Assembly: GCA_947471035.1 (NCBI GenBank)
Contig: CANIWJ010000011.1
Span: forward strand, 1 to 48,966
Direction: 5' to 3'
DNA length: 48,966 nt
Source of the DNA: Verrucomicrobiota bacterium
GTDB taxonomy: Bacteria; Verrucomicrobiota; Verrucomicrobiia; Opitutales; Opitutaceae
Below the pieces are notes generated by a model that saw nothing but the letters and a program-made list of their open reading frames with translations, was not told where the DNA came from and searched no databases. Shown here in pieces: positions 23,659 to 48,416 of the stretch (its first letter is position 1; each line of letters starts with the position of its first letter). The position numbers and the translations under genes were made by a program.

Positions 23659-23949
23659 TTACGACTGGGGCCCGGTTTGGCGTTCCAGTTGGGCCAGATA
23701 AGCGAGCGCATGGTCCCGGCTCGTACCGCACATTTCTTCCGTCGGGCGCAGGCTGGCGCAGACCGCCGGCCGTTCGGGCTGACCGAAAAGCGCGCAGCGC
23801 AGGTCGGGCAAGAGCTGTACGCAGGGGACGCCCGCCGGCTTGCCTTTGGGCATGCCGGGTATGGGCGACGTAATCGAGGGCGCGATGCAACAGGCGGCGC
23901 ACCCCGCGCGGCAGGCCAGCGGCGGGGTGCTCATCGGGCCGGGCTTCAC
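23659..23949 (-). CDS. YkgJ-family cysteine cluster protein
   Basis: A small protein of 91-96 residues with eight Cys, including CRAGCAACC near the N-terminus. Further Cys follow in VPCVQL, LRCALFG, PAVCASL and EEMCG. The pattern fits the YkgJ/UPF0153 family, predicted to bind zinc or an iron-sulfur cluster; its role is unknown. GTG 23949 overlaps the stop of the upstream DUF748 gene by four bases, implying coupling. ATG 23934 is an alternative start. It is convergent with prfC (16 bp). Confidence 0.75.
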   Translation of the reverse strand: MKPGPMSTPPLACRAGCAACCIAPSITSPIPGMPKGKPAGVPCVQLLPDLRCALFGQPERPAVCASLRPTEEMCGTSRDHALAYLAQLERQTGPQS

Positions 23950-34223: not shown

Positions 34224-34369
34224 CGAGAAAATCAGGTTAAGCGAAGCTGGGCGAAAAGAATATCAGGAGCTTCCGTGGCGACGTTGTAAAAGAAACGCTA
34301 ATAGTGCCTATGCACCAAACGCAAAACCCTTTGTTTATTTCCACGCGTAATTTAACCGAGTAGCCCCAA

Positions 34370-37300
34370 ATGAAGTCCAAGTCCCGTCCCTCCCGCCCAA
34401 AATCCGCGCAAGAACTCACCGTTGGTCAGGGTTTTCGTTTCTGTCTCTGTGTCGCGCTGGCCTCCCAGCAGCTCACCGCCGGACCGCTGCCGAGCGGCGC
34501 TACGGTGGTCAACGGCGAGCTGCGCATCCAGACGGCGGGCACGCGGATGGACATTAACCAGAGTAGCAAATTTGGCATCGTTAACTGGGATTCCTTCAAC
34601 GTCGGGGCCGGACACGCCGTCAACTTCAACAACGGTTCCGGCGCCACCCTCAACCGCGTCACCGGTCTCGACGCCTCCTCGATCAACGGCCGCCTCACCG
34701 CTACCGGCAGCCTCTTCCTGATCAACCGCAACGGCATCATCATCGGGGCCGACGGCCAGGTGCTGACCGGCGGAGCCTTCGTCGCCTCCACCCTCGACAT
34801 CAGCAACGCCGACTTCCTGCGTGGCGGCGGCTTCAGCCTCTTCGGTAATAGCCCTAAGGGCGTCACCAACCTCGGCAAAATCTCCTCCACCACCGGCGAT
34901 GTGCTCCTGGCCGGTTACACCGTTTCTAACCTCGGCACGATCACCGCCCCCGCCGGTCGCGTCGGCCTCGCCGCCGGCACCCAGATCGACGTCGTCACCG
35001 ACGCCGGCTGGCTGAATGGCGCCTACGCCGTCAGCCTCGGCGAACGCGACCACAATGTGACCAATGAGGGCCGCATCCAGGCCCTCGCCGCTGAACTGCG
35101 CACCTTCAACGGCAATATCTACGCCCTCGCCGGCAACAACACCGGCCTCATTCAGGCCACTGGCGTGACCGAAAAAGACGGCCGCGTTTACCTCACCGCC
35201 GCCAACGGCACCGTGCAGAGCACCGGTACCGTCACCGCCACCCGTGGCACCGACGGCGGCGACATTCGCATCGAGGCCGCCAACGTCGAAAACTACGGCG
35301 GCACCCAGGATGTCTCCGGCCAAAGCGGTGGCACGATCACGATCAAGACCGACGCCATCACCAGCGATACCGCCATGCTGGCCAAGGGCGCGTCCGGCGC
35401 GGGCGGCACCATCACCATCGACGCCAACCGCGAAATACTCCTGACCTCGGCCGGCCTGCTCGACGCCTCCGGCACGTCCGCCGGTGGTAACATCACCGTG
35501 CGCTCCGGCCCCGGAATTAACCTCGTCTCCGCCAATCTCGACGCCACCGCTTCCGAAGGCCAGGGCGGTACCGTGTCCCTGCTCGGCGACCGCGTGTCCC
35601 TGCTCGGCGCGACCGTGGATGCCTCCGGCGCGACTGGTGGCGGCACCGTGTTGGTCGGCGGCGGCTACCAAGGCGCACTTGTCCAAGAGCAGGCCAACGC
35701 CTCCCGCACCTACATCGGCGACAAGACCACCCTGCGCGCCGACGCCACCGGCGAGTCCGGCCAGGGCGGCACCGTGGTCGCCTGGGCCGACGGCACCACC
35801 GAGTTTGCCGGCACCATCACCGCCCGTGGCGGCTCCGCCTCCGGCAACGGCGGCACGGTCGAGACCTCGGGTCTCGCCGGCCTCGGCGTCTCCGGCACGG
35901 TGGACGCCTCCGCCCGCTCCGCTTCCGCCGCGAACGGCCAGTGGCTCCTCGACCCCAAAAATATCACCATCGGCACCGTCACCGATTCGATGAACGAGTT
36001 CCGCAGCACCATCGAGGGCTTCGGTTCTCGCCCCGGTGCCGATGCCGATACGAACGGCGCCGGCTTTGGCTATTCCGTGTCCATTAGCGGGGAAAATGCC
36101 GTTGTGGCCGGCCGCCTTACCGGTGCGATTTACATCTTCGAGTCCGGCGCTATCGCCGCCCGTATTGGTGGTTTCTCCACCGGCGGATACCCCAGTTACC
36201 AAAACCCCATCTCCGCCCGCATCGTTGACGACTACATTGCCGTCCTCGACACCAGCGCCTACAACCCCACCTACACCGGCAGCTTCGACTACGCCTACGG
36301 GGCCATCTATGCTTTAGCCAAAGGCACCGGCTGGCGCAGCGGTGTGGTCAACTCCACCGCTCCGAATGTCGCCGGGTATGACGGCCAAATCACCGGTCTC
36401 ACCCCGAATTTCAAATCCAAGGTCGTCAACCCGGAGCAGGCATATAGCCGCGATACCCAGTCAATACGCTTCGGCCACCGCTTCGAAATGGTGAAACACA
36501 CCGACGGTCGCGTCATGGTTTACGTCACCGACCCCGACTTCGATTCGGACCGCACCACTAACATTAACGTCGGAGCGGTTTACGCCGCCCAAATCCACGA
36601 CGGCGGGATCAATTTCCTCCAAAACATCAGCTATCAAACCATGCAAACCGGAGGCTTCCCCTCCGTTGCTAATGCCAAGCTCGGCACCAACATGGTCGCG
36701 ACCAGTGAGTTTGTCGGCGCTAGTTTCGATAACGGCACCGCATTCTGGGACGACTTCTTCCTCTATGATCCGAAGGGGACGATCACCCCTCTCAACCAAA
36801 ACTTCTTCACCACCAGCTTCGCTCCTGCGGGATCATGGGTCGGCGAAGGTACCAAGTCTTTCTTTGCGGCTAACAACGTCCACATGTTGTCCGTTTTTCG
36901 ATCGGGAACCGGTCAACTTTCCGCCAATTCCCCCTCCAGTCCGCTCAATTTGAACCGTGGTGGCCTCGCCTACTCCGGCGATACCCTCCTCGTCAGCAGC
37001 GATAACGCAGGCAGAGCCCAGGTCCTTTTCTATCAAAACCCCGAGTCCCTCATTAACTACGGGTCAAGCTCCCCTTCCTTCTACGCGACCCCCGGCTACA
37101 CCTACATCGACCCCACCGCCAACGCTGCCTCCTATATCAGCTCCATCGCCATCGACGGGAACTACGCGATGCTCGGCATGCCCTACGCATCCCCCCTCGC
37201 CGCTCAATACGGCCGCACTCAAACCGGCGCCGTCCAACAATTCCGTCGTATCAACGGTACCTGGACCTCACGCTCCGCCACCTCCGACCCCGCCTTCGCC

Positions 37301-40300
37301 AACCCCTACTATCTTGGCCCCTTAAACGCAGCGGATAAATTCATCGCCTCCTCCAACGGCGTGGACCTCGCCATCGACGGCAACACCGCCATCGTCGGCG
37401 ACGCTTATTATTGGGACCAAATCTATGGCGGCACCAATTCCGGACGTATCTACGTTTACGAAAACGGCGCTCTGGCCGCCTCCCTCATGGGCAGGGGAAT
37501 CGGCGCCAATATCGCCATAAGCGGCAACCGCATCGCCTCCACTGGCGGATCGAGCCCCTACCGGGTTCATTTATATGAAAAAGGCGCAGCCTGGCGCAAC
37601 GGCACCGCCAATCTCACGTCCACCTTCGATGATTCGGCCAATATTCAATCCATTGCCCTCGACGGCACTACGCTTGCCTACGGCTCGCCTCAGGCCGGGC
37701 CCAACGCACTCGGCAAGGTAAACGTTTTCACGAACATCGGTTCCGGTCTCTCGAACCCAATTACCCTTCGTAACCCCCAAGGCGTCTCCGGCACCGCCGA
37801 CAACTTCGGTTCCGTAATCGCGCTCTCCGGCAACACCCTCGCCGCCAGCCAATCGACCCGGCAGCTCTTTGACGCCGCTGCCGACGGCGTCGGCAATTAT
37901 AACGTCTATCTCTTCGAAAATCTCGCGAATAACTGGGCCACCGCCACCGCCACCCGCCTCGCAGGCTCCACCCTCCTCAGCAACGTCCAGGACAGCGCCG
38001 GCTTCGGATTTTCCCTTGGCCTCGACAACAATACTCTCGCGGTTGGTTATCAACGTGATGGTCAGCAATTCGGTGCTAGCCGAGGCGTTTACGTCTTTGA
38101 GCGCACCAGCACCTGGGCCAACGCCACCACCCCGGTCGCCCGTCTCACCGCTCCCATCACCGCCCGTAACTTCGGCTACGACGTCGATGTCGATGGCAAC
38201 ACCATCGCCGTCAGCAGCCCCTCTGCCGGAGGCGCTTTTGTTTACGGCGGCCATGGCACCCAGACCAGCTTTTCTCCCGTATTCATCTTTCAAAAACAAG
38301 ACGGTTGGAAAAACGGCGCCGTTAACCACGTAGCCTCCCTCGTCCCCACTACCAACGAGGGCAGCGATGTGCGTCCCTTTGGCGCAACCATCGCCCTCAG
38401 TGGAAATAACCTGATCGCAAGCTCCACCTGGGGTGGTGGCGGCTATCAAACCATTCGCCCCGTTTATCACTTCACCGGCCCCTTCGACTTCTCCAGCCGC
38501 GCATCTTTCAGCACCGGCCCCGGCGGCAATCTGAATATCTCCGCCGCCTCCCTCGCCAACTCCCTCTCCCTCGGCACCAACATCACCCTCCAGGCCAACA
38601 ACGACATCACCGTCTCCTCGGCCATCAACGTAAACAACCCCACCGGCGACGGCGGCGACCTCACTCTTCAGGCCGGACGCCGCATCCTCGTCAACGCCTC
38701 CATCACCACCGACAACGGCGACCTCACCCTCGTCGCCAATGCCTCCGGTGCCAACGCCTCCTTCCGCGATGCCGGCGAGCGCGTCGTCGTCCTCGGCCGC
38801 GATACCCTAAACGCTTCCGTCACCCTCTCCCTCGGCACCGGCAACCTCGTCATCGCCGCCGCCGACCGCTTCGAAAACCGCACCGGCGCGACTGACCCGT
38901 TCCGCTTCGCCACCGTCAACCCCGGCCGCTACCTCGTCTATTCCACCACCCCCAACCAGACCGGCGCACCCGACTTGCCCAACCTTCAAGCCGACCTCGC
39001 CACCACTGGCCGCGACTGGGTTTACTACAATCGCGCGTTTAACGCTGCCTCGCCCATCCCCTCCGATCTCCCCGCCGGCGATGGGTTCATCTACACCGTC
39101 CAGCCCACCCTCGGAGTCTCCGTCGGCAACGCCTCCATCACCTACGGCCAGACCGTCTCCGCCAATCTAACCCTCTCCAGTCTCACCCTCGGCGGCAACG
39201 CCGTCTCCGGCACCGTCTTCGGCATCCCTTCGACCTCCAGTGACCTCGCCAACCTCGTAAACTTCGGCTTCGCCAACACCGTCTCCATCGGGACCGGCGG
39301 CCTCGCCAACGCTGGCACCTACACCGGTGGCATCACCGCCACCGCCAAACCGACCGTCACCACCGGCACCGTTTACGGCGTCGCAGTCTCTACCGCCGGC
39401 GCGGGCAACCTCACCGTCGCCAAGAAGACGCTGGACGTCCGCCCCGACAACGCCACCCGCACCTACCGCGACGCGAACCCCGCGTTCTCCGCCACCTACA
39501 CCGGCTTCGTGCCCGGAGACAGCATCAGCGTTCTGGATACCGCGCCCACGCTCTCCACCACCGCCGTCCTCGCCTCCAACATCGGCAACTACGCCATCAC
39601 CGCCACCGCCGGCCTCGACAACAACTACGCGTTCAACGTCACCGGCCCCGGCCAGCTCTCCATCACCCGCCGCGATCTCGCCCTCACCGGCCTCACCGCC
39701 GTAAATCGCGTTTACGACGCCACCGACATCGCCCCCCTGTCCGGCACCGCCACTATCGCGCCCCTCGGCGGCGACAACGTCGTCATCGACACCGCCTTCA
39801 CCCAGACCGCTTATTTCGCCAGCAAGAACTTCGGCACTGCCAAGCCCGTCACCACCTTCACCGGTTTCAACCTCACCGGCGCCCAGGCGAACAACTACAA
39901 CCTCGTCTTCCCCACGAATCTCACCGCCAACGTCTCCCGGGCGACCCTCGCCCTCGGCGGCATCACTGCGCTGGATCGTGACTACGATCGCAGCCTCGCC
40001 GCCGCCCTGACCGGCACCGCCACCGTCGCTCCACTGGGCTCCGATTCCGTTTCAGTCTCCGGCACGCCCAGCGGCACTTTCGCCAACGTCAACGCCGGCG
40101 TCGCCAAGCCCGTCACCGTCTCCGGCCTCACTCTCGGCGGCACCGACGCCGCCAACTACGTTATTTCCAGCGCAGGCATCACCGCCACCATCCGTCCCCT
40201 CGCGCTCGACGTTACCGGCCTTGCCGCCCTCGACAAAGTTTACGACGCCACCCCCGCCGCGCCCCTCGCCGGCACCAGCACCATCGCCCCGCTCTCGGGC

Positions 40301-43300
40301 GACACCGTTACGCTTTCCGGCACCGCTACCGGCGCATTCGCCGATAAAAACGTCGGCACTGCCAAGTCCGTCACCGTCGCGGGACTTTCGCTCTCCGGCA
40401 CCCACGCCGCTAACTACGTTCTGCGCGTGCCCACCGGCCTCACCGCCGAGATCACCCCGGCCGACCTCGCCCTCACCGGCCTCTCCGTGCTCGATCGCGT
40501 TTACGACGCCACCACCGTTGCCGCCCTTTCCGGCACCGCCACCGTCAATGCCCTCGGCTCTGATGTCGTCTCTGTGGTCGCTTCAGGGGCAGCCGCCAGC
40601 TTCCTCGATACCAACGTCGGCACCGCCAAGCCCGTCACCGTCACCGGCTTCACCCTCACCGGCGACGCCGCCAATAATTACAATCTCCTCCAACCTGCCG
40701 GACTCACCGCCACGATCACCGCGCGTCCCATCACCGTTTCCGGCTTCGTCGCGAACGATAAAATTTACGACGCCACCACCAGCGCCACCGGTACCGGCAC
40801 TGTCCAGTTCGGCGGCATCCTCTCCGGCGACGACGCCACCATAGACGGCTCCGCCTTCACCATCGCCTTCGCCGACACCAACGTCGGCACCGCCAAGCCT
40901 CTCGTCCTCTCCGGCATCACCGTCACCGGCACTGCCGCCGCCAACTACGACGCGACCAGCGCCTTCGGGTTCACCGCCAGCATCACTCCCGCCACCCTCA
41001 CCGTCTCGGGCGTCACCGCTCTCGACCGTCTCTACAACGCCACCAACACCGTCGCCCTCTCCGGCGGCACCCTTCAGGGCGTGCAGGGCTCCGATAGCAT
41101 CACCTTCGTCACCGCCGCCCCCACCGGCAGCATGGTGGATAAAAACATCGGCGACGCCAAACCCGTCACCGCCTCCGGTTACGCGGTCACCGGCACCGCC
41201 GCGTCTAACTACGTTCTCACCCAGCCCACCGGCCTCACCGTCAACATCGCCGCCGCCCCCCTCAACCTCGTCGGCCTCTCCGCCGACAAGACCTACGACG
41301 GCACCCGCACTGCCCCGCTCTCCGTGACCGGCCTCGATGCCGTCTTCTCCGGCGACCTTGTCTCGGCCGATCTCTCCGCCGTCTCCGCCATCTACGCCGA
41401 TAAATTCGCCGGCCTCGCCCGCCCCGTCACCCTCACCGGTCTCTTCGGCCTCTCCGGCAACGGCGCAGGCAACTACACCCTTGCTCAGCCCTCCGCCCTC
41501 ACCGGCACCATCGCCCGCCGCGGCATCACAGTCTCCGGCCTCACCATCGCCGACAAAACTTACGACGGCACCGTCTTCGCCGACATCTCAGGCACCGGCA
41601 CCTTCGGCGGCACCATCACAGGCGACGACCTCGCCATCAACGTCGGTGCCACCACCGTCACTTTCGCCGACGCCAACGCCGGCGTGAACAAAACCGTCGC
41701 CCTCTCCGGCGTCACCCTCTCCGGCAACGACAAGGACAACTACACCGCCACCACCCCCACTGGCCTCACCGCCACCATCCTCAAAAAAGACCTCACGGTC
41801 ACCGGCCTCGCCGCCGTGGATCGCGTTTACGACCGCACCCTCGCCGCCAGCCTCACCGGCACCGGCGCGCTCCAAGGCGTGCTCACCGGCGAATCCATCA
41901 CCCTCGATGAATCCACCCGCACCGCCGCCTTCGCCGACAAAAACGTCGGCACCGCCAAGTCGGTCACCGTCTCCGGCTTGATCCTCTCCAGCACCAGCCT
42001 GAATAACCCCAACAACTACCGCCTCGTCTCGCCCGCGCTCTCCGCCTCGATCACCCCCGCCGATGCCAGTGTCATCGGCCTGGCCGCCGTGGATCGCGTT
42101 TACGACACCACCCGCACCGCCCCGCTCACCGGCACCGCCACGCTCGATTTCGGCTCGCTCAACAACGTCCTCGCCTCCGCCGAATCTATCTCCCTGTCCG
42201 GCATCGCCACCGGCACCTTTACCGACAAACACGTCTCCCTCTCGCCCAAATCCGTCACCGTCTCCGGCCTAACCCTCGCCGGCACCGACGCCGCCAACTA
42301 CACCCTCCGTCTCCCGACCACGCTCAGCGCGTCCGTCACCCGCGCCGACCTCGCCATCACCGGTGCCTCCGTCGCCAATAAAACCTACGACGCCACCTTG
42401 GCTGCGACCCTCTCCACTCGCGGCGTGATCGCCCCGCTCGGCGCCGACTCCGTAACCCTCGTCACCGCCGCCGCCACCGCTTCCTTCCTCGATAAAAACG
42501 TCGGCACCGCCAAGTCGGTCACCGCCTCCGGCTACAGCCTCTCCGGCGGCGATGCGGGCAACTATCGCCTGATCGACCCCGCCGGTCTCACCGCCTCTAT
42601 CACCCAGGCCGATCTCTTGGTCACCGGTCTCACTGCGCTGGATCGTTTCTACGACCGCACCGCCATCGCCCAGCTTTCCGGCACCGCCGGCATCGCCCCG
42701 CTGGGCTCCGATGTCGTCACGCTCACCGGCACCCCCACCGCCTCTTTCTTTGACAAGAGCGCCGGTAAAAATCGCCCGGTCACCGTCACCGGCTTCGGCA
42801 TCACCGGCACCGCAGCGGGCAACTACAACCTCGTTGCCCCGCTGCTCAGCGCTACCGTAAATCCGCGTTTCGTCACCATCGGCGGCTTGAGCGCCAACGA
42901 CCGCACCTATGATCGCACCACCGCCGCCACCTTGTCCGGTTCCGCCACCTTCACCGGCTTCCTGCCCGGCGACGACCTGACCTTCGCCCTCTCCGCCATC
43001 ACCGCCACCTTCGCCGACAAAAACGTGGGCCTAGACAAGCCCGTTACCCTCACCGGTGCCGGTCTGCGCGGCACCGATGCCAGCAACTATTCCCAGGTCC
43101 TGCCCTTCGATCTCGTGGCCGATATCGCCGCCAAGCAGCTCTCCGTTATCGGTGCCGACGCCGTGGACCGGGTTTACGATCGCACCCTCAACGTCGTCCT
43201 CACCGGCGGCGCGCTCTCCGGCACCGTCACCGGCGACGTCGTTAACCTCGTTACCACGTCCGCCTCCGGTCTGATCGCCAACAAAAACGCCCAGACCGCC

Positions 43301-46300
43301 CCCAAGCCCGTCACCGCTTCCGGCTACGCCATCACCGGCACCGACGCCACCAACTACGCCCTGCGCCAGCCCACCGGTATCGACGTCCTCATCGCCCCCC
43401 GCCAGGTGGATATCTCCGGCGTGCAGGTCGCCGAAAAACTCTTCGACGGTAACACCAGCGCCACCGTCAGCGGCGGCACCCTCTCGAATGTCGTCTCCGG
43501 CGACGCCCTCGCCTTGGTCACCACCCAGGGCACCGCCAGCTTTGCCACCGCCGATGTCGGCAACAACAAGCCCGTAGTGCTCTCCGGCTTCACCCTCGCG
43601 GGCGACGATGCAGCCAACTACGTGCTCAACGCCGCTCCGCGCACCACCGGCCGCATCCTCCCCAGCCTCAAGGAAATTACCGAGGTCATCCCCGCCGAGG
43701 TCCTGCGCGCCTCCAGCACTCAGGCGACCGAAGTCCAGCGCGCCCAGCTGGTCGCCCTCGCCGCCGCCAAGGGTGACAAAATCCCCGTCATCGACCTGGG
43801 TAAAATCGTCGAACAAGCGACCACCGGCCTCATCATTACCAAGCCGAATCTCGCCATCCTCAACACCCCGCTCGATCAGCAGGATCAGCTCACCAAAAAC
43901 TACATCGCCGCCGCCTACGCCGCCGATGCCGCCAGCAATAACCTCCAAACCCAGGCCATCGGCTTCCGTATCGCCAACCAGATCCAAAAAGAGACCGGCC
44001 AGCAACTCAACCAGACCGCCAAAGCCATCGAGGTGGAGCGCGGCCTCCGCTCCCTCCTGGTCGGCCAGTTCGAGCAGGTGAACAACCAGCTCGCCCTCGC
44101 CAACAAAAACCTCGAGGCCATCGCCGACGCCAAACGCAACATCGCCGACTTCACCCAGCGCCTGGCCGACGCCGCCCGCCTTGGTCGCGGCAGCGAGGTC
44201 GCCGAGTATCAGCGCATTATCGACGCCGCCAAAGCCATCGTCGCCACCGAGGCCAAGACCCTCGCCCAGCGCGATGCCCTCGCGCTCGAAGCCGCCAGCG
44301 GACGCGAAAAGATAGCCGCCAACGACCGCAAGGTCGCCGAGCTCGAAACCAAGAAAGACGAACTCTCCACCAAGCTCGCCGAGGTCGAGTCGCGTTTGGC
44401 CAACGTCAGCGGAGCGATGGCCGACGCCAAAGCCAAGGCCGCCGCCGCCGCCGAAAAACTCGCCCAAGCCCAGGCCGCCGGTGCCGCCGCTTACGCCTCC
44501 AGCAGCACCAGCCTCCAGCAGGCCGATGCCCTCCTCGCCCTCGCCGACTCCGATGTCCCGGCCAAAACCGCCGCTACCATGGTCGCCAACGATCCGCTGG
44601 TGAAACAATTCGAGTCCAAGGCAGCCACCGCCGCCGAAGTGACCAACACCGTCGGCCAGGGGCTCGCCACCGTCCTCTCGCCCGCCGCCCTGGCCTACGC
44701 CAAATCGGTCGCCGACAAGATCAACTCCGGCGGCGTCCTCGACGACTCCACCGCCATGCGCGACTCGCTGGTGAAGTCTGTGCCCGCCCTGCGCGAGCTT
44801 CAGACCCAGCTCGATTCCGTCGAGAGAACCCAAGCGCAAGAAGCCGCCGCGATGGAGGCCCGCATCGCGCAAACGATCGCCGCCAAGGCCTCCGTCAGCG
44901 CGATGTTCGGCATCACGCTTACGCCTGAACAGCAGGCCCAGCAGGCCGCCCAAGAACGCGCCCGCCTCAACGACCGACTCAACCAGCTCACCGGCGGCGC
45001 GCTCGACCTCTCCAAGGTCCCCACCAAAAACGCCGACGGCGAGGCCCTCACCGAACTCGAGCGCATCTCCATCGCCATCCTCAATAAACAGCTCAACACT
45101 CCCCAGGGCGCTGCGGGCGAGGCCGGAACTTTCGCCGCCGGCTACAAGGATCGCCTCAACGAAGCCGTTGCTCAGGAGTTCGGCTTCTCCCCCGAACAAG
45201 CCCTTAACGACCCGCGCGTCCTCGCCAAGGAGGTCGTCAACCGCCAGCCCTTCAACAGCGACGGCTCGCTCGACAAGGAGCAGCTCGCCGAAAACATGAA
45301 GGTGGCCGCCTCCGCCTATGTTAACCTCAGCGGCTCACTCAAGGACGAGGCCATCAAACAGGCCGCCACCCAGGACCCCACCGGTGCTGCCCAGGCTTAC
45401 GTCGGCGCCGAAAAGGCCGCACGCGACGAGTTCGTTAAAACCTACGGTGCCCAGCCCGAAGACGTCATCACCAGCAAAATCAACGCCCGCATCGACGCCT
45501 ACAAAAACGCCGATTCGCCCGAGGCCCTCCTGCGCGTCCACGCCGCCAGCATGGTTCCCGGCGGCGAGATGACCATCGAGGCCGCCACCAAGGCCTACAA
45601 CGACCTCAAGGCCGGCAAATCCCCCGACGCCGTCGCCAAAGACATGGCCAGCAATCTCTGGAACGGAAGCGGCGACGGCCCCTCCGCCCGCGATCAAGCC
45701 GCCCAGGCCGCGCGCACCGCCGCCGCCGCGCAGGATGCCGCCATCACCTCCCTCGAACAGGCTGACAAGACCGGCTTCTTCAAGGCCTCCAATACCATCA
45801 CTGGTGCCGCCGGCGAAGAGTTCGCCAAGACCTTCGGCGGCTCCCCGCAAGAGCTCGGCATCAAGGCCCTCGAAAACCCGGGCGACGCCGCCAACCAGGT
45901 CAAAAACGCTGCCAAGGATATTCTTACCACCCCCGACGGCGCGCTCAACGCGGTCAAGGGCGGCATCGCCACCTACTCCAACATGGCCGACGCCACTCTC
46001 GCTGCCGCCAAACAGCAGCTCGACGTCGTCGGGGCCAAATTCGGCGACGCCGGCAAGGCCGCCGCCTTCGTTGCCAAGCATGGCATCACCGCCGTCACCG
46101 AGGTGAAGAACTTCATGCAGGACGCCGCCAGCACCCTTACCGGCGGCCTGATCGCCAAGAGCGGCCCCTCCAAGACCGAGGTGGAAAACGCCATCGCCTT
46201 CGCCAAGGCCCAGGAAGAAGTCGCCCGCGCCGAGAGCCAGAAACGCGAGGACGCCATGCTGCTTCAATACCTCAAAGCCGCCCAGGACATGGCCCGCCTC

Positions 46301-46549
46301 AAGGCCCAGATGGCCGCCGGCGTGGTCAACGCCAAGGCGCAGGTCGGCCAATACCTCGTCGCTTCCCAGCAACAGGCCAAACAGGAGAAAACCGCCGCCG
46401 CCGCCAAACAGGCGGTCACCGCCGAGATCACCCGCGTGGTTCAGACCGGCCTCACCGAAAAAGCCCAGTCCACCAAGGCCCAGGCCTCCGCCGGCCTCAC
46501 CACCGAACAGATGCAGGCCAAGGCCGCCCTCTGGTCCAAAGGCAGCTAA
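34370..46549 (+). CDS. Giant two-partner secretion exoprotein (TpsA, FHA-like)
   Basis: A 4059-residue predicted secreted adhesin. A basic N-terminus with a weak hydrophobic core (FRFCLCVALASQQLTAG) precedes the TPS domain (~40-300): GIVNWDSFNVGAGHAVNF and LINRNGIIIGADG are the FHA-type NQxS/NPNG-like signatures. Beta-helix follows to WLLDPKNITIG (~525). Residues ~545-1365 are FG-GAP-like repeats, after which FHA-type text resumes (NLNISAASLANSLSLG). MBG-like segments lie near ~1580 and ~1683. Fifteen YDG repeats span ~1767-3097. The last ~960 residues are Ala/Lys/Glu-rich, predicted helical with coiled coils, with no CdiA-type toxin motif. The TpsB gene follows 19 bp later. ATG 34370 has no Shine-Dalgarno; a promoter could not be assigned in the 146-bp upstream gap. 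Confidence 0.9.
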   Translation: MKSKSRPSRPKSAQELTVGQGFRFCLCVALASQQLTAGPLPSGATVVNGELRIQTAGTRMDINQSSKFGIVNWDSFNVGAGHAVNFNNGSGATLNRVTGLDASSINGRLTATGSLFLINRNGIIIGADGQVLTGGAFVASTLDISNADFLRGGGFSLFGNSPKGVTNLGKISSTTGDVLLAGYTVSNLGTITAPAGRVGLAAGTQIDVVTDAGWLNGAYAVSLGERDHNVTNEGRIQALAAELRTFNGNIYALAGNNTGLIQATGVTEKDGRVYLTAANGTVQSTGTVTATRGTDGGDIRIEAANVENYGGTQDVSGQSGGTITIKTDAITSDTAMLAKGASGAGGTITIDANREILLTSAGLLDASGTSAGGNITVRSGPGINLVSANLDATASEGQGGTVSLLGDRVSLLGATVDASGATGGGTVLVGGGYQGALVQEQANASRTYIGDKTTLRADATGESGQGGTVVAWADGTTEFAGTITARGGSASGNGGTVETSGLAGLGVSGTVDASARSASAANGQWLLDPKNITIGTVTDSMNEFRSTIEGFGSRPGADADTNGAGFGYSVSISGENAVVAGRLTGAIYIFESGAIAARIGGFSTGGYPSYQNPISARIVDDYIAVLDTSAYNPTYTGSFDYAYGAIYALAKGTGWRSGVVNSTAPNVAGYDGQITGLTPNFKSKVVNPEQAYSRDTQSIRFGHRFEMVKHTDGRVMVYVTDPDFDSDRTTNINVGAVYAAQIHDGGINFLQNISYQTMQTGGFPSVANAKLGTNMVATSEFVGASFDNGTAFWDDFFLYDPKGTITPLNQNFFTTSFAPAGSWVGEGTKSFFAANNVHMLSVFRSGTGQLSANSPSSPLNLNRGGLAYSGDTLLVSSDNAGRAQVLFYQNPESLINYGSSSPSFYATPGYTYIDPTANAASYISSIAIDGNYAMLGMPYASPLAAQYGRTQTGAVQQFRRINGTWTSRSATSDPAFANPYYLGPLNAADKFIASSNGVDLAIDGNTAIVGDAYYWDQIYGGTNSGRIYVYENGALAASLMGRGIGANIAISGNRIASTGGSSPYRVHLYEKGAAWRNGTANLTSTFDDSANIQSIALDGTTLAYGSPQAGPNALGKVNVFTNIGSGLSNPITLRNPQGVSGTADNFGSVIALSGNTLAASQSTRQLFDAAADGVGNYNVYLFENLANNWATATATRLAGSTLLSNVQDSAGFGFSLGLDNNTLAVGYQRDGQQFGASRGVYVFERTSTWANATTPVARLTAPITARNFGYDVDVDGNTIAVSSPSAGGAFVYGGHGTQTSFSPVFIFQKQDGWKNGAVNHVASLVPTTNEGSDVRPFGATIALSGNNLIASSTWGGGGYQTIRPVYHFTGPFDFSSRASFSTGPGGNLNISAASLANSLSLGTNITLQANNDITVSSAINVNNPTGDGGDLTLQAGRRILVNASITTDNGDLTLVANASGANASFRDAGERVVVLGRDTLNASVTLSLGTGNLVIAAADRFENRTGATDPFRFATVNPGRYLVYSTTPNQTGAPDLPNLQADLATTGRDWVYYNRAFNAASPIPSDLPAGDGFIYTVQPTLGVSVGNASITYGQTVSANLTLSSLTLGGNAVSGTVFGIPSTSSDLANLVNFGFANTVSIGTGGLANAGTYTGGITATAKPTVTTGTVYGVAVSTAGAGNLTVAKKTLDVRPDNATRTYRDANPAFSATYTGFVPGDSISVLDTAPTLSTTAVLASNIGNYAITATAGLDNNYAFNVTGPGQLSITRRDLALTGLTAVNRVYDATDIAPLSGTATIAPLGGDNVVIDTAFTQTAYFASKNFGTAKPVTTFTGFNLTGAQANNYNLVFPTNLTANVSRATLALGGITALDRDYDRSLAAALTGTATVAPLGSDSVSVSGTPSGTFANVNAGVAKPVTVSGLTLGGTDAANYVISSAGITATIRPLALDVTGLAALDKVYDATPAAPLAGTSTIAPLSGDTVTLSGTATGAFADKNVGTAKSVTVAGLSLSGTHAANYVLRVPTGLTAEITPADLALTGLSVLDRVYDATTVAALSGTATVNALGSDVVSVVASGAAASFLDTNVGTAKPVTVTGFTLTGDAANNYNLLQPAGLTATITARPITVSGFVANDKIYDATTSATGTGTVQFGGILSGDDATIDGSAFTIAFADTNVGTAKPLVLSGITVTGTAAANYDATSAFGFTASITPATLTVSGVTALDRLYNATNTVALSGGTLQGVQGSDSITFVTAAPTGSMVDKNIGDAKPVTASGYAVTGTAASNYVLTQPTGLTVNIAAAPLNLVGLSADKTYDGTRTAPLSVTGLDAVFSGDLVSADLSAVSAIYADKFAGLARPVTLTGLFGLSGNGAGNYTLAQPSALTGTIARRGITVSGLTIADKTYDGTVFADISGTGTFGGTITGDDLAINVGATTVTFADANAGVNKTVALSGVTLSGNDKDNYTATTPTGLTATILKKDLTVTGLAAVDRVYDRTLAASLTGTGALQGVLTGESITLDESTRTAAFADKNVGTAKSVTVSGLILSSTSLNNPNNYRLVSPALSASITPADASVIGLAAVDRVYDTTRTAPLTGTATLDFGSLNNVLASAESISLSGIATGTFTDKHVSLSPKSVTVSGLTLAGTDAANYTLRLPTTLSASVTRADLAITGASVANKTYDATLAATLSTRGVIAPLGADSVTLVTAAATASFLDKNVGTAKSVTASGYSLSGGDAGNYRLIDPAGLTASITQADLLVTGLTALDRFYDRTAIAQLSGTAGIAPLGSDVVTLTGTPTASFFDKSAGKNRPVTVTGFGITGTAAGNYNLVAPLLSATVNPRFVTIGGLSANDRTYDRTTAATLSGSATFTGFLPGDDLTFALSAITATFADKNVGLDKPVTLTGAGLRGTDASNYSQVLPFDLVADIAAKQLSVIGADAVDRVYDRTLNVVLTGGALSGTVTGDVVNLVTTSASGLIANKNAQTAPKPVTASGYAITGTDATNYALRQPTGIDVLIAPRQVDISGVQVAEKLFDGNTSATVSGGTLSNVVSGDALALVTTQGTASFATADVGNNKPVVLSGFTLAGDDAANYVLNAAPRTTGRILPSLKEITEVIPAEVLRASSTQATEVQRAQLVALAAAKGDKIPVIDLGKIVEQATTGLIITKPNLAILNTPLDQQDQLTKNYIAAAYAADAASNNLQTQAIGFRIANQIQKETGQQLNQTAKAIEVERGLRSLLVGQFEQVNNQLALANKNLEAIADAKRNIADFTQRLADAARLGRGSEVAEYQRIIDAAKAIVATEAKTLAQRDALALEAASGREKIAANDRKVAELETKKDELSTKLAEVESRLANVSGAMADAKAKAAAAAEKLAQAQAAGAAAYASSSTSLQQADALLALADSDVPAKTAATMVANDPLVKQFESKAATAAEVTNTVGQGLATVLSPAALAYAKSVADKINSGGVLDDSTAMRDSLVKSVPALRELQTQLDSVERTQAQEAAAMEARIAQTIAAKASVSAMFGITLTPEQQAQQAAQERARLNDRLNQLTGGALDLSKVPTKNADGEALTELERISIAILNKQLNTPQGAAGEAGTFAAGYKDRLNEAVAQEFGFSPEQALNDPRVLAKEVVNRQPFNSDGSLDKEQLAENMKVAASAYVNLSGSLKDEAIKQAATQDPTGAAQAYVGAEKAARDEFVKTYGAQPEDVITSKINARIDAYKNADSPEALLRVHAASMVPGGEMTIEAATKAYNDLKAGKSPDAVAKDMASNLWNGSGDGPSARDQAAQAARTAAAAQDAAITSLEQADKTGFFKASNTITGAAGEEFAKTFGGSPQELGIKALENPGDAANQVKNAAKDILTTPDGALNAVKGGIATYSNMADATLAAAKQQLDVVGAKFGDAGKAAAFVAKHGITAVTEVKNFMQDAASTLTGGLIAKSGPSKTEVENAIAFAKAQEEVARAESQKREDAMLLQYLKAAQDMARLKAQMAAGVVNAKAQVGQYLVASQQQAKQEKTAAAAKQAVTAEITRVVQTGLTEKAQSTKAQASAGLTTEQMQAKAALWSKGS
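36040..38480 (+). repeat. FG-GAP-like repeat segment inside the TpsA exoprotein
   Basis: Eight or so degenerate protein repeats follow the pattern F-G-x-x-(V/I)-x-(I/L)-x-G-N-x-(I/L/V)-(A/V), then a turn, then G-x-(V/I)-Y-(V/L)-(F/Y)-E. Examples are NFGYDVDVDGNTIAVSSP, GFGFSLGLDNNTLAVGYQ and SGRIYVYENGAL. The pattern suggests beta-propeller blades. The DNA here is visibly less GC-rich at third codon positions than on either side. Confidence 0.65.
39670..43662 (+). repeat. Fifteen tandem YDG-type repeats in the TpsA exoprotein
   Basis: I count fifteen units averaging about 266 bp (89 residues). Each begins near (L/I)-x-(V/L)-(T/S)-G-(L/V), with D-(R/K)-x-Y-(D/N)-x-T soon after. Each ends in G-x-x-(A/N)-N-Y. 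The K-N-V-G-T-A-K-(P/S)-V-T segment is near identical between several units even at DNA level. The pattern matches the YDG adhesin domain. Confidence 0.85.
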
Positions 46550-46568: not shown

Positions 46569-48416
46569 ATGCCTTCCTCTCTCCGCGTGAACCACTCCTT
46601 CTCCCTTCGCCTCGCCGCCGCCTGCCTGCTTCTGCCCGCACCCTTTGCGCTGGCCCAAGCCGCCAAGGTCCTCGGCCCCCAGTCTCCCCTCGAACAATAC
46701 CCCGCGCCCGTGGCCGAGCTGCCCTCCACGAAAGGCCTGATCGATTTCCCCGCCCTCATCGCCGCCCCCGGCGCGAACGACCGCGCCGTGATCACGCCCA
46801 CCTTGCGCCGCCTCCAACTGGAGTTCGTCGGCACCGCCGCCGCCGCTGCGCCGATCCCCGCCACCGACTTCGTGCTCCTGCAAGGCACCAGCAAGGTGGA
46901 CGCCGCCCAGCGCGCCGCGCTGATCGATGCGCTCACCACCAAACTCGCCATCTACCGCGACCTGCCGCTCACCCTTGGCGACGCCCGCTTCATCCAGCAG
47001 GACATCACCGACATCTACCGCGCCTCGGGCTACCCGCTCATGTCCGTGGTCGTGCCGCCCCAGGAAATCGTGGACGGTCAGCTCCGCGTGCAGATCAACG
47101 AATTCCGCCTCGAAGCCTACCGCGTCCAGTATGCCGACGGCCAGGGCGGCTACAGCGCCGAGGCCAAACACCGCAGCAGCGATGCCCGCCTCGCCCGCCT
47201 CTTCGACCCCTTGCTCGCCGAGCCCATCCTCCAGCAGGCCTCGCTCGATTCTAAAGTGAAGAAGCTCAACTCCGGTCCCTACCGCAGCGCCCGGGTCGTC
47301 TTCGAGCCCGGCCAGCAACTCGGCCAAAGCGTCGCCCAAATCCAGATCGACGAAAAACGCCCATGGAGCCTGCGCGCCGGCTACAACAACCACGCCACTA
47401 AATCCTCTGGCACCGACCGCTACTCCCTCGGCGGCGCGTTCGAGAACCCCTTGATCGAAGACCACCAAGTCTCGTTCAACGCTGTCACCGGCAACCGCAT
47501 CGAAGAGTTCGCCAACTACTCGCTCAACTACACCGTTCCCACGCTCCCCGGCCAGCGCCTTACCGCCAGCGCCAACTATTCCGACACCGCCTCGTCCACC
47601 ATCCCCGGCATCCCCGGTTCGGCCAGCACCACCCTGCAAAGCTCGCTCAAATACGAGTTGCCAATCTGGGAGCGGGAAAAGTTCCAATGGGGTGCCAACG
47701 CCACCGCCGCGTTTAACCAATACCAACGCGAGAGCCTGTTTAACTCCGTCGTGGTCGGCGGCGCGGATTACGATGCCGCCCAGCTCACCCTCAACAGCGT
47801 GCTCAACTGGAAGGAGGCCACCGCGACCAACCAGTTCGTGGCGGGCGTGATTTTTAATTTCGCCGGCCTGAGCGCGCGCAACAGCACCGCCGATTTCCAG
47901 CAGTTCTACAACACCGCCACCGGCGAACCCACCACCCGCCACTACGTCCTGAACTATGCTCGCGTGCAGCAACTCGGCCCCTGGCTTGCCGCCTTGGACG
48001 GCTGGTCCACCGAGACCCAGGTTTCCTGGCAGATCACCAACCAGCAGCTCGCGGGTGGAGACAACTTCTCGCTCGGCGGCGCCAACGCCTTCCGTGCCTA
48101 CCAATCCAGTGAAGTCAGTGGGGATAACGGGGCCTACCTCATCCAATTCCTGCACCTCAAGCCCTTGGGCGGCGAGCGCCTGGGCTTCGCCAAGACCTGG
48201 ATACAGGAAGTCGCGTTTTCCCCTTTTTACGAAATCGGCTTTGGCAGCTTTGAGCGCGGCGGCGAAGAGAGCCTATGGGATTACGGCCTGCAAATGAACC
48301 TCTCTGGTGCGAAATACTTCTCCACCACCGCCTCCGTGGCCGTGGCAGGGGAGGGCACCCGCGCCACCGGCCGCTACGACACCCAGTTCTACATCAGCTG
48401 CAGCCTGGCCTATTGA
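46569..48416 (+). CDS. Two-partner secretion transporter (TpsB, ShlB/FhaC type)
   Basis: A 615-residue outer-membrane Omp85-superfamily protein. A signal peptide (basic start, then LAAACLLLPAPFALAQA) is followed by a ~60-residue linker. A POTRA region follows: RDLPLTLGDARFIQQDITDIYRASGYPLMSVVVPPQEIVDGQLRVQINEF in consecutive parts. The 16-stranded barrel runs from ~RPWSLRAGYNNHATKSSG to the terminal aromatic SCSLAY. The L6 motif, normally VRGY/VRGF, reads FRAY in FSLGGANAFRAYQ, retaining the Arg but losing the Gly. It would bind the TPS domain of the upstream exoprotein and thread it across the outer membrane. The gap to tpsA is only 19 bp. Confidence 0.9.
   Translation: MPSSLRVNHSFSLRLAAACLLLPAPFALAQAAKVLGPQSPLEQYPAPVAELPSTKGLIDFPALIAAPGANDRAVITPTLRRLQLEFVGTAAAAAPIPATDFVLLQGTSKVDAAQRAALIDALTTKLAIYRDLPLTLGDARFIQQDITDIYRASGYPLMSVVVPPQEIVDGQLRVQINEFRLEAYRVQYADGQGGYSAEAKHRSSDARLARLFDPLLAEPILQQASLDSKVKKLNSGPYRSARVVFEPGQQLGQSVAQIQIDEKRPWSLRAGYNNHATKSSGTDRYSLGGAFENPLIEDHQVSFNAVTGNRIEEFANYSLNYTVPTLPGQRLTASANYSDTASSTIPGIPGSASTTLQSSLKYELPIWEREKFQWGANATAAFNQYQRESLFNSVVVGGADYDAAQLTLNSVLNWKEATATNQFVAGVIFNFAGLSARNSTADFQQFYNTATGEPTTRHYVLNYARVQQLGPWLAALDGWSTETQVSWQITNQQLAGGDNFSLGGANAFRAYQSSEVSGDNGAYLIQFLHLKPLGGERLGFAKTWIQEVAFSPFYEIGFGSFERGGEESLWDYGLQMNLSGAKYFSTTASVAVAGEGTRATGRYDTQFYISCSLAY

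Follow-up and report, generated by a model that had tools for sequence, protein, structure and literature searches.

The window analyzed here (positions 1 to 48,966 of contig CANIWJ010000011.1, assembly GCA_947471035.1, from a Verrucomicrobiota bacterium of the family Opitutaceae) encodes a giant TpsA-type exoprotein of the two-partner secretion (TPS) type. To judge from its sequence, this protein is probably exported from the cell, and its stalk is taken as a putative beta-helix. At the WLLDP junction the stalk is interrupted by a long insert of FG-GAP-like blades, which probably represents two tandem seven-bladed propellers. We regard it as reasonably likely that the protein is a TPS stalk bearing two tandem FG-GAP_2 propellers at its WLLDP loop, and that these propellers form a target-binding head which is exchanged or changes fast while the stalk stays constant.

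A propeller-type insert at the WLLDP junction

The first-pass annotation of this DNA had suggested that about 820 residues separate the WLLDP motif from a downstream segment that normally follows within a few tens of residues. WLLDP starts at residue 525 (nucleotide 35942) and the segment NLNISAASLANS at residue 1387 (nucleotide 38528), 862 residues start to start. To place this distance among relatives, 41 TpsA-type open reading frames (ORFs) of one family were surveyed: residues 1–537 used as query matched 42 of 150 sampled family genomes, 40 loci were taken from these places, which were thus partly sampled, and L003 was added. The LLDP motif was not seen in five of the 41 ORFs, and one match (L073) was judged to be another motif. 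In 32 of the remaining 35, helix-type sequence returned within a few tens of residues, as judged by eye over 110 residues past the motif; inserts were found at the junction in the other three (L034 of genome G280, L003, and L053). The close homologs hold the same type of insert rather than FHA repeat, in line with the earlier suggestion. The stalk resembles its relatives on both sides of the insert: residues 289–524 are 92% identical to G280 and 68% to L003, and residues 1387–1480, which are similar to the ordinary TpsA continuation, are 95% and 89% identical. A frameshift or assembly artifact was ruled out, as 4,059 codons are open and the layout is repeated in L034, L003, L118, and L120. The lower GC content noted for the segment was confirmed: the GC content of third codon positions (GC3) drops from 0.87 on either side of the insert to 0.72 within it, and a similar dip is present in the inserts of G280, G401, and G351b (four of the five complete inserts in total).

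The blades proposed from two quoted examples were located at residues 1212 and 1268, and a profile search agreed with their assignment: FG-GAP_2 (PF14312) matched the segment with 55.2 bits (cut-off 23, E 8.2e-15) and the whole window protein with 33.9 bits. In a blade-by-blade genome scan the best single window blade reached 22.2 bits, just below the cut-off. The other four complete inserts scored 46.3 to 95.3 bits, all above the cut-off, L118 and L120 included. A blade profile built from 35 blades of six loci other than the window matched the window protein with E 1.9e-15, and six ordinary TpsA controls with E 0.029 to 12. Blade motifs lie at residues 566, 614, 704, 770, 830, 864, and 924 in the N-terminal half (picked by eye) and at 998, 1046, 1093, 1146, 1212, 1268, and 1337 in the C-terminal half. 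All five complete inserts retain the fourteen motifs and the open frame.

Structure modeling of the C-terminal half gave a predicted template modeling score (pTM) of 0.82 and 28 predicted strands, which were grouped by hand into seven fours. The predicted local distance difference test value (pLDDT) is below 50 at 82 of its 403 residues, and known propeller chains align to model residues 1–394. This half is therefore predicted to be a seven-bladed propeller. Together with the FG-GAP_2 match, the predicted fold rules out ordinary FHA repeat or a continuous helix in the insert. A single propeller grafted onto the stalk had been proposed; a propeller in place of a continuous beta-helix is indeed predicted for the C-terminal half, and the insert as a whole looks like two propellers in tandem. 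Blades 1–2 of the N-terminal half align by profile to blades 8–9, and its motifs were assigned by eye. The whole-insert model has a mean pLDDT of 45, and the N-terminal half has no confident model. Foldseek retrieved double-propeller proteins with this low-confidence model (TMq 0.10–0.26), which were not used as proof.

Integrin-alpha heads rank first in VIA-align of the C-half model, and WIPI3 and kelch propellers rank above integrins in Foldseek. By sequence, no PDB match was found at E 0.1. The integrin calcium-loop pattern D.[DN].[DN]G..[DE] is absent from the five inserts, and the integrin likeness is thus one of fold only; shorter D.[DN].[DN]G strings occur at residues 558 and 1271 of the window protein and 1333 of G280. 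Another reading is that the propellers are a secreted enzyme borne by the stalk. This seems quite improbable, because the best match is trailed by no more than about three Z units by many unrelated propellers and no enzyme family was matched in Pfam or NCBIfam (an active site was not sought).

Distribution of the insert and a second array at the same junction

With three inserts as queries, matches were detected in 10 of 252 family genomes. Five of these have a TPS-borne insert: that of the window itself, G280, G350, G351, and G401. In the remaining five the matches are brief and weak (E 1e-8 to 2e-4); among them the loci of G240 alone were inspected, and they lack TPS by eye. G351, of the same genus as the window, has two copies (G351a and G351b), and L003 is identical to one of its contigs. 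The junction of G350 reads WVLDP rather than WLLDP. In L122 (G350:C337) the reading frame is broken soon after the insert, by either an assembly error or a real change. FG-GAP_2 itself matched in 20 of the 150 sampled family genomes.

Beyond the family, an order-wide search gave matches in 2 of 177 genomes, the window's own and G008, whose protein is non-TPS by eye, and a pattern search of genome contigs confirmed 1 of 15 stretches, which is L003. Across the class, the insert profile matched in 41 of 384 genomes. None of ten long-frame loci had a blastp match to the TPS domain or helix part of the window protein (E 1e-3); the N terminus of L152 lies outside its stretch, and the other insert-profile matches are not among these ten. 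A plasmid search gave no match, and of 34 stretches on viral contigs none was confirmed.

Two other FG-GAP loci were recorded along the way. L151 (G094:C1:2570500-2590400) is a 6,454-residue stretch of open frame in which the profile marks 49 FG-GAP-like blades, equal to seven sets of seven. L098 (G126:C1:2685000-2692000) encodes an FG-GAP protein without TPS domain, in which MBG/YDG-like repeats and, at the end, a dockerin-like tail were recognized by eye; it combines the MBG/YDG-like and FG-GAP domains of the window protein in a different order.

L053 (G220:C27, ORF L053:2-7102:-) resembles the window in having a repeat array at the same junction: ten DUF5650 (PF18888) repeats stand between the same two TpsA flanks. 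The array belongs to a family other than FG-GAP, the blade profile giving E 12 on the whole protein, with a stretch at 574–606 scoring 10.9 bits. DUF5650 was found in 1 of the 150 sampled family genomes (G220 only); across the phylum, 6 of 288 genomes had it. Five of the seven phylum loci hold arrays under the pattern, free-standing by eye and without LLDP motif; the other two have frames of about 2,600 residues with no array under the pattern, their sequences not having been read through. Among the papers listed, no description of DUF5650 in a TPS exoprotein was found, and the term is absent from the literature searched. A tentative generalization, possible but less likely than not, is that the WLLDP loop acts as a socket, into which repeats of at least two families (FG-GAP_2 pairs and DUF5650 arrays) have been plugged, with heads swapped by recombination while stalk and transporter stay, so that the protein would diversify like CdiA with integrin-like heads.

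Divergence of insert and stalk

Among the five complete genes (ten pairs), identity is 65–98% in the TPS domain, 66–92% in the helix part, 71–95% in the post-insert part, and 35–70% in the insert. The paralogs G351a and G351b are 72%, 79%, 95%, and 36% identical in these parts, respectively. That the propellers vary far more than the stalk among relatives suggests an exchangeable recognition head. Between the window and G280, synonymous divergence (dS) is 0.755 in the insert; outside it, dS is 0.17–0.29 across the TPS domain, helix, and post-insert part. The 21-codon junction has a value of 0.07, and values rise to as much as 0.42 further on in the gene. Five neighboring genes have values of 0.16–0.38 (13 of the 18 window genes tried had no match). 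Because lower GC3 inflates dS, fourfold sites were also compared for C/G differences alone, which amount to 30/233 in the insert and 117/1617 elsewhere (Fisher p 0.006). In view of this count, the threefold excess in dS was given less weight as a proof of exchange.

The relationship of G350 to G351a speaks against an insert that is simply fast: the first 105 insert residues are 89.5% identical and the last 175 are 87.4%, with N parts 72% identical. Trees of both insert ends joined G350 and G351a (100/99) and rejected the pairing of G351a with G351b (p 0.003 and 0.03). The flank tree left G351a, G351b, and G350 unresolved: two pairings were not rejected (p 0.16 and 0.35), and the third stood in the best tree (56/42). 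In insert and flank trees alike, the window gene has G280 as its sister. With the topology fixed and the insert represented by its two ends only, one scaled set of branch lengths for flank and insert was rejected (likelihood ratio test 161.7, 8 degrees of freedom, p 7e-31, Bayesian information criterion difference 108), and a similar gap was obtained under two other topologies. The insert therefore follows a tempo or a history of its own.

Several observations weigh against an exchanged or fast-changing head. The insert of G351a has no GC3 dip, and the G350 gene consists of two contig fragments taken as one gene. The composition-insensitive count for window and G280 is 0.129 versus 0.072, and the dS excess may partly reflect GC3. 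The ratio of nonsynonymous to synonymous divergence (dN/dS) for this pair is 0.30 in the insert, compared with 0.23 (YDG region) and 0.27 (residues 3400–4059) elsewhere in the gene. As the insert value is little above these two, positive selection is not supported for the insert as a whole. In G350 and G351a, the 44 residues past the insert are 91% identical, and in sliding windows the flank and the insert show similar synonymous differences; these even differences fit exchange no better than they fit orthology with a slowly evolving insert. Topological proof of exchange was not reached, as the flank tree rejects neither tested pairing, and the argument for exchange therefore rests on the unequal distances.

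Two other explanations of these distances were weighed. A change of rate only, under antigenic, phage, or predator pressure and with no module exchanged, would agree with the lack of significant conflict between insert and flank trees, including the sister position of window and G280 in both. It would require insert branches about four to nine times longer relative to the flank in window/G280, G401, and G351b, yet shorter ones in G351a and G350, and we consider it possible but doubtful. It is unlikely that the propeller pair is a mere spacer or bulge under relaxed constraint with no specific binding. The fast divergence of the insert in all ten pairs, its dN/dS between window and G280, and the GC3 dip seen in four of the five inserts are consistent with a spacer; however, relaxation would speed the insert everywhere, which is not what the insert ends of G350 and G351a show against their N flank, and the kept blade motifs and open frames also argue against it. 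Thus, module exchange is our preferred reading of the unequal distances, although it is not proved.

Gene layout, proposed mechanism, and known systems

The features of the gene and its neighbor are listed below. Four Pfam families were found in the window protein: the TPS domain, FG-GAP_2, MBG_2, and YDG. The TPS domain scores 91 bits with PF05860 (cut-off 33.5) and 60.5 bits with TIGR01901 (cut-off 29.1), and the adjoining gene product scores 58.2 bits with ShlB and 31.8 bits with POTRA_2, as expected of a TpsB partner.

Table. Features of the exoprotein gene and its partner in the window
Feature	Position	Strand	Basis
TpsA-type exoprotein gene	34370..46549	+	single open frame, 4,059 aa
TPS secretion domain PF05860, aa 38-288	34481..35233	+	Pfam E 1.5e-25; NCBIfam TIGR01901 E 1.1e-16
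aa 289-524, between TPS domain and junction, taken as beta-helix	35234..35941	+	sequence comparison
WLLDPKNITIG junction, insert start	35942..35974	+	motif position; comparison with TpsA ORFs
Insert N-terminal half, inferred propeller 1	35975..37315	+	blade motifs by eye; profile match of two blades
Insert C-terminal half, predicted seven-bladed propeller 2	37316..38527	+	structure prediction, blade motifs
Stalk resumption (NLNISAASLANSLSLGTNITLQANNDI...), aa 1387-1491	38528..38842	+	identity to G280 and L003
MBG_2 domain, aa 1688-1763	39431..39658	+	Pfam E 6.6e-17
15 YDG repeats in array (limits approximate)	39659..43279	+	Pfam PF18657, 15 stretches, E 2.4e-213
Ala/Glu/Lys-rich C-terminal region (limit approximate)	43280..46546	+	composition
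TpsB partner transporter, POTRA_2 and ShlB/FhaC/HecB	46569..48416	+	Pfam E 1.3e-7 and 1.2e-15

An antisense open frame of 616 codons (34352–36202, minus strand) lies over the TPS domain and helix part; it is taken as no gene, such frames being usual in GC-rich coding DNA. Window positions 1–23666 have no blastn match to the G280 contig (E 1e-20), and piecewise matches begin at 23667; a rearrangement, an island, or a contig limit are alternatives.

A mechanism can be proposed, with the secretion route carried over from known TPS systems (reviewed in PMC5422565). The chain would exit N terminus first and unfolded by way of the TpsB pore, and the beta-helix would form outside the cell. The insert would fold sideways as two propellers whose ends meet, allowing the helix to continue. 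The two ends of a propeller lie close together, and it can thus occupy a helix loop and leave the helix unbroken. The insert is free of cysteine in the five homologs, which suits unfolded export. Fold, context, and variability suggest that the propellers bind a target, which may be a glycan, an environmental polymer, or a neighboring cell. The protein would then be retargeted, on a constant stalk, when its propellers are exchanged or change rapidly. If a globular propeller pair is truly nested in the helix, it would follow that domains of this kind are exported by the TPS pathway and that the pair marks a natural insertion site. As module and stalk do not evolve in step, the ligand range of the module is testable on isolated domains.

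To our knowledge, most integrin-type propellers of bacteria have no known function, and one is placed here in a defined secretion context. Such propellers occur in many bacteria including Verrucomicrobia (PMC3192720). TpsA proteins are usually drawn as long beta-helices, with adherence in loops and extra-helical motifs (PMC5422565, which does not contain the word propeller). Bacterial integrin-type propellers and TpsA proteins with extra-helical parts are thus already known. Among the matches listed, no title or abstract opening dealt with an FG-GAP or other propeller within a TPS exoprotein, subscription literature being thinly covered; a biofilm review (PMC7841849, full text not read) has FG-GAP and two-partner secretion once each.

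The window protein shares with FHA-type TpsA (PF05860, TIGR01901) the TPS domain, a directly downstream TpsB gene, and the WLLDP-type junction, and differs in about 850 additional propeller residues at that junction followed by 15 YDG repeats. With bacterial FG-GAP_2 proteins it has the blade profile in common; elsewhere, in the loci inspected, FG-GAP_2 occurs without a TPS domain, whereas the window propellers are nested in another fold. The propeller of the integrin alpha-chain head is 15% identical to that of the window protein, whose insert lacks the full calcium-loop pattern and probably has two propellers in tandem. CdiA, the precedent for modular receptor binding, has receptor-binding domains that form a variable module within a conserved TpsA chain, as in the window protein (PMC5371414). 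A variable internal TpsA region beside a transporter might therefore suggest a contact-dependent inhibition effector, with the insert as receptor-binding part and the C terminus as toxin. We consider this very improbable: no toxin family was found in Pfam at E 1 (immunity genes were not searched), and window and G280 agree at 82% and 88% of positions in the two final blocks of 300 columns, unlike what a polymorphic toxin end would show. Compared with CdiA, the module has another position and another fold, on a protein with no toxin end detected.
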